A DNA stretch of 64,000 nt from Cyanodermella asteris. Lineage: Eukaryota > Ascomycota > Lecanoromycetes > Ostropales > Stictidaceae. Each line of letters begins with the position of its first letter. Position 1 is the stretch's first letter. A model generated the notes under the pieces. That model did not search any database, was not told the origin of the DNA, and saw only the letters and a list, made by a program, of their open reading frames with translations. Shown in pieces: positions 39,524 to 58,234 of the stretch. The stretch is from assembly GCA_900618795.1 (NCBI GenBank), contig UYJD01000014.1, forward strand, positions 1 to 64,000. Direction: 5' to 3'. Both the position numbers and the translations under genes were made by a program.

Positions 39524-40750
39524 CTAAGTGGTCTTCCAGACTGTGCGAATGTACCCCTCAACGTCCTCGAGCAGTTCACGCGGCTTCTCCAGCGCCGCAA
39601 AGTGTCCCCCTTTTTCATGCTCACTGAAATGTACCAAGTTGCAACTCGCCTCGGCCCAACTCTTCGGCGCCGGCACAATCTCGTGCGCGAACAACGAGTA
39701 TCCACTCGGCTTCTCCACACGCGGCAGCTGCAGCGCCGTCAGCTTGGAAGCCAAAGTCATCCTCGCCATCTTCGGCTTCTCCTCCGGATTGCCCAGCCCA
39801 CGATTATGCCACAGTGCACGCGGCATCGTGTCGGTCAACCAGTACAACGTGACGGCTTCCAAGATCTTGTCCAGTGGTGGGTCCTCGTCCGACCATTCGA
39901 GGTATTTCTCGGCCATCCAGCTGAGGAGTGCGAGTGGGCTGGAGGCCAGGACGTGGCCGACGGTGGCGGGTCGGGTGCCTTGCAGGATCACGAAGCCGCA
40001 GCCGGTATCGACGGCCTCACAGGCACGTTGTAGCGCACGTCGCTCTTCGGCTGTGGATGTTTTCTCAGCTGTTCCCGGCGGTGGCATACCCATCATGCTC
40101 ACGTGCATTCCTTTACATGCCTCGTACTTCATGGCGAGGATTCTGCTGATGAAACTGCCGAGATCGCCACCTTGGGCTAGATATCCGGACTCAAAACCCA
40201 GACCGATCATCAGGTTGTGCAGTGCTTCAGCAGCCATCTCGAGGTCATAATCTGTATCCGCTGGCGGCCCAGAAGAGTAAGCATATCCCGGGATCGACGG
40301 CACGATGACATGGTACGGCAGATCCTTGGGCGTATACTTCTCCTTCAAGATGTCGAGAATGTCGAGGAAGTGACAGATCGAACCCGGCCAGCCATGGAAG
40401 AAAGCAATCGGAGTGGCGTTAGCGCGCTCTGAGAACAAGGCCAGAAATTGTAGCTCGATGTCGTTGCCGGCGCCGTCCTTGACAGTCGCTTTGAAGTTTG
40501 GGTACGAGTTGATCCTGTCTTCGTGCTTGCGCCAATCAAAGTTGTTCAACCACACAGTTTTAGCGTTTGCGAGCCAATCACAGGTGACTCCGTACTTACG
40601 GCCAGCGTTTGTGTTCTCGAACACCGGGGGCGCGATGGGCGAGAACTCGAGGAGTTTCTTGAAGTGGTCGAGCTTCTCGTTGGATACGTGGGCCTTGAAA
40701 GGCTTGAAGTCTAGGGTCGCGCCGGCGGGGAGGTGAGCGTATTCGGCCAT
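39524..40750 (-). CDS. Epoxide hydrolase (EHN domain + alpha/beta hydrolase), 408 aa
   Basis: These enzymes open epoxides to diols through a covalent Asp ester. I take the ATG at 40750 (MAEYAHLPAGATLDFKPFKA); the frame is open 24 codons further up but that part looks like leader. The N-terminal EHN domain (about 10-110) includes NNFDWRKHEDRINSYPNF. The hydrolase core shows the oxyanion motif FFHGWPGS, the nucleophile Asp in GGDLGSFISR, cap-domain tyrosines, and the catalytic His in GGHFAALEKPREL near the end, as in microsomal-type and fungal secondary-metabolite epoxide hydrolases. There is no clear TM anchor, so it is probably soluble. It is complete and close to the usual 390-410 aa size. 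Confidence 0.88.
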   Translation of the reverse strand: MAEYAHLPAGATLDFKPFKAHVSNEKLDHFKKLLEFSPIAPPVFENTNAGRKYGVTCDWLANAKTVWLNNFDWRKHEDRINSYPNFKATVKDGAGNDIELQFLALFSERANATPIAFFHGWPGSICHFLDILDILKEKYTPKDLPYHVIVPSIPGYAYSSGPPADTDYDLEMAAEALHNLMIGLGFESGYLAQGGDLGSFISRILAMKYEACKGMHVSMMGMPPPGTAEKTSTAEERRALQRACEAVDTGCGFVILQGTRPATVGHVLASSPLALLSWMAEKYLEWSDEDPPLDKILEAVTLYWLTDTMPRALWHNRGLGNPEEKPKMARMTLASKLTALQLPRVEKPSGYSLFAHEIVPAPKSWAEASCNLVHFSEHEKGGHFAALEKPRELLEDVEGYIRTVWKTT

Positions 40751-41915
40751 GTTATTCAGGTAAGAGACGAACTGCTTGAGCGTTGACGAATTGAAGGTGT
40801 GTATGGAGACAGTGAAGTTCAAACGATGATGAGACTGGTTTGATCTCGGTCTGGCCAGAAGAATACAAAAGCAATCAATTAATACTTATACGGCATTATT
40901 ACACAACATGGAGCACAGTACAACGTGGACATTCAGGCATCGTCGAACGACTGTTACACGGGAAGAAGCTACCCGAATGTAGGTGAAGATGAAAGAAGAG
41001 CCGAGAAGGTGTCAGCACCATCTCGAAATGGCCTAAAGATTCCCGTCGATCGCTGCAGCCCAGTCGGGGAACGAAACGAGCCTTTCGCGCATAGACGAAC
41101 GGAGATTGTGTAAGCACTTGTGCAAGCACTTACAAGGCCCCGAATGCATGGGCCGAGACACACATCCTTGTATTCGAAGGAAGCAGCTCACGAGCGTGAG
41201 GAGGAGAGGTGGAGAGACTGTGCGCGCTCGTTGATTACCTAATGGATACAGATTGGTACCGTCGACGCGTTGNNNNNNNNNNNNNNNNNNNNNNNNNNNN
41301 NNNNNNNNNNNNNNNNNNNNNNNNNNNNNNNNNNNNNNNNNNNNNNNNNNNNNNNNNNNNNNNNNNNNNNNNNNNNNNNNNNNNNNNNNNNNNNNCCGCG
41401 TTACACGCGTGTGTAAGGCGAGGATTAATCGAAAGTAGTGGCGCACGTACGGTCGAGAACACCTACTGATATCCTGCGTTAACTACTTATATATCAACCC
41501 CTAAAATTGCTTCGTGAAGTATGTAGGCCTCAACTTTCATAGGTACCTATTGTGGTAGCCATCGACGTGATTATAAACGTAGTGGCGTAAGTAGATGCTC
41601 GAGGATATGCGCAACGACTTTTGATTACCCGCCTTATGTGTCTTACGTTCAATAACTTCGTCGACTACGGGTCTTGGAGAGATATAACAACGACAGTAAG
41701 GTAAAGAACTCACGTCCGTGGGCGTGTTTCATAGATTGATACTCAACAAGCCCCTAAAGCCAAAACATTGTCCCTGCAAAACCATGTGCCGAAACGAAGG
41801 CGAGAAACAAAAGTCATGCGGTCTGCACGATCAATTCCATCGATAGCAGTCTTTCTGCATCATCCACAATTTCACCCATCCCCTAAGTACATCAGCATTC
41901 GGAGTCGTCCGACGA
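40751..41915. other. Upstream region of the epoxide hydrolase and AT-rich flank of a gap
   Basis: Sequence right of the 123-N gap (about 41400-41760) is AT-rich and full of short TA/GTAC words, unlike the surrounding genes. It may be part of a repeat that failed to assemble. No frame with recognisable coding capacity is left. Confidence 0.45.
41273..41395. other. Assembly gap (123 N)
   Basis: Run of N, bordered on both sides by ACGCGT-type words (GACGCGTTG on the left, CCGCGTTACACGCGTG on the right), which suggests a simple repeat or mobile element inside. Confidence 0.95.
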
Positions 41916-55965: not shown

Positions 55966-56427
55966 ATGATTGCTCTTCGTAAGTCAAACCTTCGTCGGCT
56001 ACTCCAGTTCTGCTGCTAACCTCGCTCTCAAGCTTCCACCATGGTGGCTCTGCACCTCTGTACTCTCGCCCTCGCCGCTCCGGCCCCAATCGAGGCTCGC
56101 ACCCCGGCGACCGCTACCATCGCTGCTAGCGGCCCAGAAGCCACCGTCCCTGTGAACAAGGACTATTGGTGCGACATTGAAACTGAAGTCTGCTACCCAA
56201 ACCCTCAAGACAGCTTTCCGTGGGGAAAGCCCCACGAGATCAAGCGTTCCAAGGAAGCGAGCGAGAAGGAGGACTTCATCTATCAATTTATCAAGAAGAC
56301 TGATACAGCTAGCGGAGTCGCGACTAACAAGGACTACTGGTGCGACATTGAGACAGAAGTCTGCTACCCCAATCCGCAGGATAGCTTCCCTTGGGGCAAA
56401 CCGCACGAGATCAAGAAGCGCGCCTAG
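55966..56427 (+). CDS. Secreted repeat peptide precursor with W-C-x6-C-Y units, 135 aa
   Basis: Exon 1 (55966-55978) holds MIAL plus one base; a 54-nt intron with a CTAAC branch site follows, then exon 2 (56033-56427). The N-terminus is a signal peptide (ALHLCTLALAAPAPIEAR). Two copies of a 30-residue unit follow, NKDYWCDIETEVCYPNP plus QDSFPWGKPHEIK, each followed by dibasic Kex2-type sites (KR, KK, KKR). A spacer SKEASEKEDFIYQF separates them. The spacing W-C-six residues-C-aromatic equals that of Pezizomycotina alpha-pheromones such as the WC...GQPCW type, but the loop lacks their Gly-Gln-Pro. A mating-pheromone-like or other Kex2-processed peptide is the best reading; a secreted cysteine-knot-like effector is an alternative. 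Similarity to the spacer continues in frame past the stop to about 56514. Confidence 0.72.
56155..56244 (+). repeat. Precursor repeat unit, copy 1
   Basis: Thirty codons from Asn-Lys-Asp-Tyr-Trp-Cys to Glu-Ile-Lys. The translation is identical to copy 2; the DNA differs at 13 positions, all in third codon positions and all synonymous. Confidence 0.9.
56326..56415 (+). repeat. Precursor repeat unit, copy 2
   Basis: Thirty codons with the same translation as copy 1, starting 171 bases later in the same frame and followed directly by Lys-Arg. Confidence 0.9.
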
Positions 56428-57601
56428 GACGCCAGCGAGGAGGAGGACTTCACTTATCAGTTTGTCAAGAAGGAGGATGATTTCATCTACCAGCTCGTCC
56501 GCAAGTCCGATTAGTCTGGTGCAGCCTTGGTCAAGTGGACCACTGCATGAGCAGTCCAAGCTATTTCGATCATCTACCTAGTTGGTTCTGGGGAGATCAC
56601 GAGAGACGGACATGATGCGAAGAGTGTATCGAGATCGCAAATGTCAACCTGAATGAAAATTCAGTATTCCAACGTGCTGTACTGTGTAGTATCTAGCGAC
56701 GTGACCGCTGGCTTTGTGTCCCTCCATCTCTGACTTTTCAAGTGTCATTCTCGAACCAAGATGCGGAATCGGCGATTCCAAGAATCAGTCCACGCAAGCA
56801 GCTTCTAGGTCGTCCGGTTGCCCATGTCGAAGATGCACACCCTTGTGCCTAAGTCGGCACGGAAGCCTCGGAGTCCGATGCCCTCGGGGTGCCTTTCCGC
56901 CAGTGATGTCATAGCATATTTCTGCTCTCGAGCTTCAGTCGCAAGGGATCCAGGCCTCCACGATCGCAACTCGCCTCACTTTTGGCGACAAAGCAAGATT
57001 GACCAGTGGATAAAGCTCCGAGAGGGTACGTAGTCACCCAAGACCGTCCCACACAAGTTTGCGGCACCGATCCTGGCAGTGCTGACTTGGCGTGTTAGCC
57101 CTTATTGTGTTGATTTCGGGTGCCTGACTGACCCTGCACGGAAAGGATTCGAAACTCAATCAACCCCGTCAACAGCATTATAGGCAACAACTCAATCGAT
57201 CAACTTACATAACTCCGGACCAACTCTGCTGTTCTTCAGTACGAGCTCAGGCCAGTCGAAAACAAGGCATCTGAAAAGCTATCACAATGCACAAAGCAGC
57301 ACGACCGAATTCCCGACCGTGGTAGAGTCTAAAAATAAACCTGTCACTGCCCATCAGGGTCCGGAAGATCTACCAAAATAATTCTTTTCTGCAGAACAGA
57401 AAAATTACAAAATTCCAGAGACGAAGCGATTTGCTCTACTTTTGAACTTTCGACCTAATCAAACCGTTCGGCTAAAAGGGGCAAAAAAGACTCATCCGCG
57501 CTCCCGCGGCCAACGTTTCCTGACAAACATATCGCTCGAATCGTAAGGTACCTACCTTACCTATCTACCTACCAACATACACATACACATAAACATCTGG
57601 C
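56428..57601. other. Region between peptide precursor and TM protein genes
   Basis: The first 90 bases extend the precursor's spacer similarity in frame (EEEDFTYQFVKK, then EDDFIYQLVRK). The rest is non-coding. Near 57547-57570 there is an ACCT/TACC-rich microsatellite in the presumed leader of the next gene. Confidence 0.5.
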
Positions 57602-58234
57602 ATGTACCTCTCCCCAACATCACGCTCTTGTGCAGCCACGTCCGAAGCACCACCAGCATATACAGAACCAGCTCCTCCTCCGCCGCCACACTCAAGGTCA
57701 ACATCGACGTCGAATGCAATGTCGCGACCCCAACCTCTACCACCCGCATCCTTCCAATCAGCAGTATCGGAGCCATCAGATCCATCAGAACCTTCAACTC
57801 CTCGGAATGGTTCCTTCCTCCGCATCTTCCACACCCCGATATCCCTGGTCACGCGGCTGCTAAACTCGATCCGGCTGGTCTTCTTCCTCGTCCTCCTCTT
57901 CTTTCAGGATAGCTACGCGTACTATAGCACGGGGTCGCGGTCAGCTTCCTCGCGAACGAAGGGGAAGCAAAAGTCTCTGAACGGAGGTTCGCATGATGGA
58001 AGTTTGGATGACGAGGTCCAGAACGCAAGCGGGTGGCACTGGATCGCGGGGCGGCGGAAGAGAGCGAAACGAGAAGTGACGGGAGCTTTGGAATGGACGT
58101 TCGGATGGCTACCGTTCTTGGTCCTGGGGATTGTGGGATTAGGAGTGGCGTGGATGCTCACACGGGCGGGCGGCCTGCTGCAGTGGATATTGAAGTCCGG
58201 TATCAATGCACTTGGGACGATCGTGTCTCAGTAG
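57602..58234 (+). CDS. Two-TM hypothetical protein, 210 aa
   Basis: MYLSPTSRSCAATSEAPPAY starts a Pro/Ser-rich cytosolic-looking N-terminus containing a PPAY motif (a WW-domain or Rsp5-type ligand). A first hydrophobic helix lies at about 84-102 (IRLVFFLVLLFFQDSYAYY), then a basic/Gly/Ser loop, then a second helix at about 168-190 (WLPFLVLGIVGLGVAWML) and a short hydrophobic tail. The PY motif plus membrane helices would suit an adaptor for ubiquitin-dependent sorting, but that is inference. I do not recognise the family. It is convergent with the DAHP synthase gene, 320 bases away. Confidence 0.6.
   Translation: MYLSPTSRSCAATSEAPPAYTEPAPPPPPHSRSTSTSNAMSRPQPLPPASFQSAVSEPSDPSEPSTPRNGSFLRIFHTPISLVTRLLNSIRLVFFLVLLFFQDSYAYYSTGSRSASSRTKGKQKSLNGGSHDGSLDDEVQNASGWHWIAGRRKRAKREVTGALEWTFGWLPFLVLGIVGLGVAWMLTRAGGLLQWILKSGINALGTIVSQ

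Follow-up and report, generated by a model that had tools for sequence, protein, structure and literature searches.

The closest described systems to the gene reported here are secreted fungal precursors cut by Kex2-type proteases. Kex2-processed repeat proteins (KEPs), as surveyed in PMC6339444 and PMC7329392, combine a hydrophobic leader with near-identical units bounded by dibasic residues. Both surveys demanded at least three units (PMC6339444, PMC7329392), and 77 KEPs carry two kinds of repeated motif (PMC6339444). The alpha-pheromone precursors of Pezizomycotina (Ppg1 type) have a similar layout, and the mature alpha-pheromone is described as a peptide of 9 to 14 (PMC10569646), 9 to 15 (PMC13037118) or 9 to 24 (PMC6339444) amino acids. 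Dikaritin precursors, which yield cyclised peptides through the UstYa pathway, are a third class of Kex2-cut repeats.

Here, we compare with these systems a gene in the 64,000 nucleotides at the start of contig C20 (hereafter the window) of a genome comprising 25 contigs and 28.5 Mb. The UstYa genes and the STE2 receptor found in this genome are consistent with a filamentous ascomycete.

Structure of the precursor gene

The gene occupies positions 55966-56427 of the positive strand and is predicted to consist of two exons encoding 135 amino acids. Its features are as follows.

55966..55978, + strand: exon 1 (ATG ATT GCT CTT C), predicted from a GTAAGT donor, a CTAAC branch-like site and the open frame
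55979..56032, + strand: predicted intron of 54 nt (GTAAGT...GCTAAC...AAG) within the signal-peptide region
56033..56427, + strand: exon 2, ending at TAG 56425-56427; predicted spliced product of 135 aa
56041..56043, + strand: alternative start ATG (CCACCATGG), read from the sequence, with a hydrophobic leader without splicing
56033..56076, + strand: remainder of the predicted signal peptide (MIALPSTMVALHLCTLALA, with cleavage ahead of APAP), assigned by eye (-3/-1 rule) and by hydropathy
56155..56244, + strand: unit 1, NKDYWCDIETEVCYPNPQDSFPWGKPHEIK
56242..56247, + strand: KR, putative Kex2 site following unit 1
56248..56325, + strand: spacer SKEASEKEDFIYQFIKKTDTASGVAT, with KK at 56293-56298
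56326..56415, + strand: unit 2, 30 residues equal to unit 1, with 13 synonymous codon differences
56413..56421, + strand: KKR, putative Kex2 site following unit 2, then A and the stop
56428..56514, + strand: second spacer copy, in frame, after the stop (DASEEEDFTYQFVKKEDDFIYQLVRKSD, then TAG)

Thus, 45 residues including the hydrophobic leader are followed by unit 1, the spacer, unit 2 and a C terminus reading HEIKKRA. The best 11-residue hydropathy mean of the leader is 2.14, and the -3/-1 rule, judged by eye, agrees with it in predicting an N-terminal signal peptide. Since the downstream ATG at 56041 gives a leader from unspliced RNA, the predicted intron, though likely, need not be invoked. 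The initial annotation had described two protein-identical 30-codon units, each followed by a dibasic site, and this description holds: the units differ by 13 synonymous and no amino-acid changes, with KR behind unit 1 and KKR behind unit 2. A further dibasic, KK, lies within the spacer. The same annotation had extended the gene to 56514 and counted the spacer as repeated. The open frame and both units are present in that range, but the frame stops at TAG 56425-56427, 87 nt earlier, and the second spacer copy, although in frame, sits behind this stop.

Positions 56428-56514 form an open frame in which the spacer is repeated once (EDFTYQFVKK), after which its motif appears a third time (DDFIYQLVRK). 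The motif [ED]DF[IT]YQ[FL][IV][KR]K accordingly occurs three times, at 56269-56298, 56443-56472 and 56476-56505, the last two behind the stop. This motif may represent a second Kex2-released peptide, and the frame behind the stop could be what is left of a once longer precursor, or an extension made by readthrough. The excess of synonymous change in this tail is weak (p=0.048).

Selection on the repeated unit

The two units differ in 13 of their 30 codons; all 13 differences fall at the third position, and all are synonymous. With 14.7 synonymous and 75.3 nonsynonymous sites (Nei-Gojobori), the probability of 13 synonymous changes out of 13 in the absence of selection is about 6e-11, from site counts alone. 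The comparison of dN and dS between the units, which had been proposed as a check, gave a pN of 0 at a pS of 0.89. Independent draws from the local codon usage would yield 15.6 codon differences, and the probability of observing 13 or fewer is 0.21; synonymous change between the units is saturated or nearly so. The duplication of the unit is therefore old, and neither a duplication nor a gene conversion of recent date accounts for the identical protein sequence.

The two spacer copies (56242-56298 and 56416-56472) differ by five nonsynonymous and four synonymous changes, plus a change to a stop, a pattern distinct from that of the units (Fisher p=0.005; 0.002 when the stop is counted). Because the units are identical in protein while the spacer copies change amino acids, strong purifying selection appears to act on the unit. 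The earlier suggestion of strong selection on the mature peptide is thus borne out by the codon analysis, an argument drawn from two copies in one genome. Identical repeats inside one precursor are also common where the function is unknown.

The repeats of the genome's own alpha-pheromone (see below) served as a comparison. All 10 pairs of these repeats differ in protein, with pN of 0.16 to 0.40 at pS of 0.30 to 0.82; the compared segments extend over the K-x-K residues flanking the core, and their pN is inflated as a result. Since the pheromone repeats vary in every pair whereas the units do not, the peptide in the window seems to be under tighter constraint than the pheromone.

A canonical alpha-pheromone precursor elsewhere in the genome

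The alpha-factor receptor gene STE2 was found on contig C3 at 415706-416578 (L007, E 3e-80); the match contains one stop, which probably reflects an intron. A canonical alpha-pheromone precursor was found on contig C12 at 236446-237051 (L081, 1102-1707) with a protein query made of canonical repeats, which matched at position 236845 (E 0.011, 44% identity). Its 201 amino acids begin MQFSVVTIIAFIAATTVAAPSARSNCERRGEPCSKVKREAISAARSNCFRVGEPCSKLKR and include five S[NS]CxRxGEPC[ST]KxKR repeats, which vary at several residues, together with EA, DA and AEAEA runs. A hydrophobic leader, short central-glycine repeats, a KR after each repeat and an XA dipeptide before most agree with the checkable criteria published for such precursors (PMC10569646, PMC13037118). 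The core is of the GE type, has no Trp before the first Cys, and is close to the Trichoderma sequence WCYRIGEPCW (PMC3068285); the XA run is separated from the repeat by an Arg (AEAEAR-SNC). The window gene had been considered the best pheromone candidate of the genome and was dropped from this position once the protein query matched the C12 precursor. A second match of the query (L082, E 3.26) contained no precursor.

Pattern searches of the genome yielded no precursor among the matches inspected. WCxxxGQxC had five matches, all of which were inspected. CxxxGQxC had 197; among the 100 listed, 91 were translated and 20 inspected in context (eight of the nine dropped contained an in-frame stop, and one had already been inspected). 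WCxxxGxxC had 116 matches; from the 100 listed, 30 loci were drawn, of which 29 were new and were scanned. Eight with a stop among their first ten codons were excluded, and none of the other 21 held a precursor. All 21 loci of [FY]CxxxG[QE]xC were scanned, with four excluded for a stop and no precursor among the remaining 17. In the real pheromone, the first Cys follows N or S, and GE takes the place of GQ, so the patterns used could not match the C12 precursor.

The single genome match of the Pleosporales-type pattern PYGxPxG was rejected as part of a multi-pass membrane protein, as judged by eye from the DNA. One pattern-level look-alike of a pheromone, a leader-bearing Cys-rich frame on contig C6 (1374000-1375500, L015), contains CGWQGQVC and CCSSGQFC and has a Ser/Thr-rich tail. 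The MAT alpha-box family had no match in the genome and matched none of the controls either.

Genomic neighborhood and searches for relatives

The named genes of the window include those for a PI4-kinase, a DAHP synthase, protein kinases and a cohesin subunit, and several frames match no family. The nearest named neighbors of the precursor gene are the PI4-kinase and the DAHP synthase; an unnamed frame (57593-58234) lies between. An epoxide-hydrolase gene (39524-40885) is located 15 kb from the precursor gene. Genome-wide, there were 68 UstYa matches at E<=0.001, with exons counted separately and three of the matches under the family cut-off. Several of them are clustered, as on contigs C18 and C19.

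In its own genome, the precursor gene was the only match below E 0.4. The one match beyond the gene itself (L080, E 0.445) showed nothing precursor-like in its frames. In a protein database poor in fungi, none of 40 candidates for the precursor query reached E<=1, nor did any of the best 7994 candidates by shared words that were scored for a longer artificial query. An STE2 query of this database found only six proteins among 5.8 billion sequences; its negatives therefore say little about fungi. Of three pattern matches in viral contigs and 48 in prokaryote genomes, none was confirmed. Pfam returned two matches to the precursor, both under the cut-off (E 0.053 and 0.29), and none to a 90-amino-acid part at E<=0.01, and three PDB matches were at chance level (E 1.3). 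In full-text literature, the letters of the peptide occur in four papers, only as chance strings, judged by titles. The literature found contained little on alpha-pheromones of Dothideomycete and Pleosporales species and nothing for Capnodiales.

Predicted processing

Taken together, the layout, the Kex2-type gene in the genome and the codon analysis argue for the Kex2-processed peptide that the initial annotation had put forward, and the gene likely encodes a secreted prepropeptide with two units and an extracellular product. The genome contains one match to the P domain of Kex2-type proteases (P_proprotein, E 1.4e-28), in an open frame of 918 amino acids. The signal peptide would direct the precursor into the endoplasmic reticulum, where a disulfide between C6 and C13 probably closes each unit into a small beta-hairpin. 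A Kex2-type protease in the Golgi would then cut after the KR of unit 1 and the KKR of unit 2 and, less efficiently, at the KK of the spacer, and a Kex1-type carboxypeptidase would trim the basic residues. Both units would give one acidic peptide of about NKDYWCDIETEVCYPNPQDSFPWGKPHEI. For the release of NKD at the N terminus, neither unit offers a dibasic; going upstream, unit 1 has the signal cut as its closest site, and unit 2 the weak KK.

The candidate peptides are acidic, with a net charge of -3 to -5 when K, R, D and E are counted. The 29-mer ending in HEI has a monoisotopic mass of 3509.53 in the reduced form and 3507.52 with a disulfide; such a defined mass allows the peptide to be searched for in culture filtrate. 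A single-sequence AlphaFold model placed strands at residues 4-7 and 12-15 (mean pLDDT 75.8, pTM 0.34; 64-69 mean pLDDT in the remaining four of five models), which is suggestive only of a hairpin spanning both cysteines. Once freed, the peptide would act outside the cell, most likely by signaling to the fungus itself or its neighbors and not as a mating pheromone. If the gene is processed as proposed, a signaling role is nearly an even call.

Alternative interpretations

The initial annotation had raised the possibility of an alpha-pheromone, citing a spacing equal to that of known pheromones. The C-x6-C spacing is indeed shared, also with the CERRGEPC of the C12 precursor, as are the leader, the repetition and the Kex2 sites; the rest of the pheromone features are lacking. 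That the product of the gene, though unusual in sequence, is the sexual alpha-pheromone or a second ligand of Ste2 is in line with its hydrophobic leader, tandem units and Kex2 sites, with a W preceding C-x6-C as in the Fusarium sequence WCTWRGQPCW (PMC7289986), and with the presence of STE2. P-W-G-x-P also resembles the Pleosporales motif PYG[L/M]P[I/V]G (PMC6339444), a likeness spotted afterwards; the chance per 30-mer is 2.6e-5 for W-C-x6-C and 1.7e-4 for P-[YW]-G-x-P, values that were computed after the motifs had been noticed and are no tests. Published pheromones furthermore include two-repeat precursors (Oidiodendron maius) and others that depart from the Kex2/Ste13 layout (PMC10569646), a Meredithiella pheromone described without a central glycine, and species with two gene copies (Berkeleyomyces; PMC13037118). 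Against this, the canonical precursor sits elsewhere, on C12, and is the best alpha-pheromone candidate of the genome. The Cys loop of the window unit, DIETEV, is acidic, whereas the pheromone repeats carry Arg, and it has no G, GQ or PG to form the turn. No XA or XP dipeptide adjoins the core (TVPV-NKDYWC and GVAT-NKDYWC), such pairs occurring further upstream only, and the unit spans 29-30 residues with no inner dibasic, although trimming beyond the predicted cuts might still shorten it. Although exceptions to single criteria are published (PMC10569646, PMC13037118), the unit departs from turn glycine, Ste13 site and size together. We therefore abandon the pheromone assignment as quite improbable; a role as a second, odd Ste2 ligand is likewise unlikely.

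A small secreted effector or antimicrobial protein, active uncut or without its pro-part, would be a two-domain repeat whose dibasics are partly incidental. Two Cys per unit, the hydrophobic leader, the presence of two units only and the weak N-terminal cutting signals fit such a protein, but both unit ends carry dibasics, and the spacer varies where the units do not; we consider this unlikely. The Kex2 repeat layout, the Tyr and Trp in the unit and the many UstYa matches of the genome would suit the precursor of a dikaritin-type cyclised peptide. However, only two of the 68 matches lie on contig C20, the nearer at 1,033,041, about 977 kb from the gene, as compared with a mean KEP-UstYa distance of 3.09 genes (PMC7329392), and the named neighbors in the window are mostly housekeeping genes. 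With UstYa this distant and a PI4-kinase and a DAHP synthase as nearest named neighbors, a cyclised RiPP is unlikely, and we regard a dikaritin as very improbable. Finally, spacer-like sequence running on in frame past the stop might indicate a decaying relic: the TAG would have truncated an originally longer precursor, and the gene would be on its way to loss. Since the TAG comes after unit 2 and its KKR, both units are whole, and the frame has no other break, this seems extremely improbable.

Implications and comparison with known systems

The processed-peptide reading thus remains the one we favor. An alpha-pheromone cannot be recognized from W-C-x6-C spacing alone, and a Trp-less pheromone of the GE type escapes the usual search patterns. 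The unit might found a family of fungal peptide hormones, acidic Cys-closed hairpins of about 29 residues with a receptor of their own, distinct from mating pheromones and more tightly constrained than the genome's own alpha-pheromone; we offer this tentatively, as a doubtful proposal. If it is true, two-unit precursors of this kind were missed by the three-repeat rule of the KEP surveys. More broadly, two-unit Kex2 precursors, which fall outside the rule of both surveys, may contain further strongly conserved fungal peptides (PMC6339444, PMC7329392).

Ppg1-type alpha-pheromone precursors share with the window gene the leader, tandem units, Kex2 sites and C-x6-C; the window unit differs in its 29-30 amino acids and acidic loop, and in having neither a turn glycine nor a core-adjacent Ste13 dipeptide. 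Precursors of the dikaritins ustiloxin and phomopsin resemble it in their Kex2-cut repeats, but the EDYXI core motif (quoted from PMC6339444) is absent from the unit. The closest match is with the KEPs (PMC6339444; PMC7329392), with which the gene shares the hydrophobic leader, near-identical units bounded by KR or KK (RR also being accepted) and a Kex2 protease in the same genome. It differs from them in having only two units, and our searches, in a protein database poor in fungi, found no sequence relative. Because the surveys need at least three repeats (PMC6339444, PMC7329392), a two-unit precursor lies outside their definition and would be missed, so its absence from them is uninformative. 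By the letter of the surveys the window precursor is not a KEP; our claim is that it would work like one, and its spacer and unit might correspond to the two kinds of repeated motif found in some KEPs (PMC6339444). The gene joins an architecture already described to an unusual peptide under strong constraint that is probably not a pheromone.
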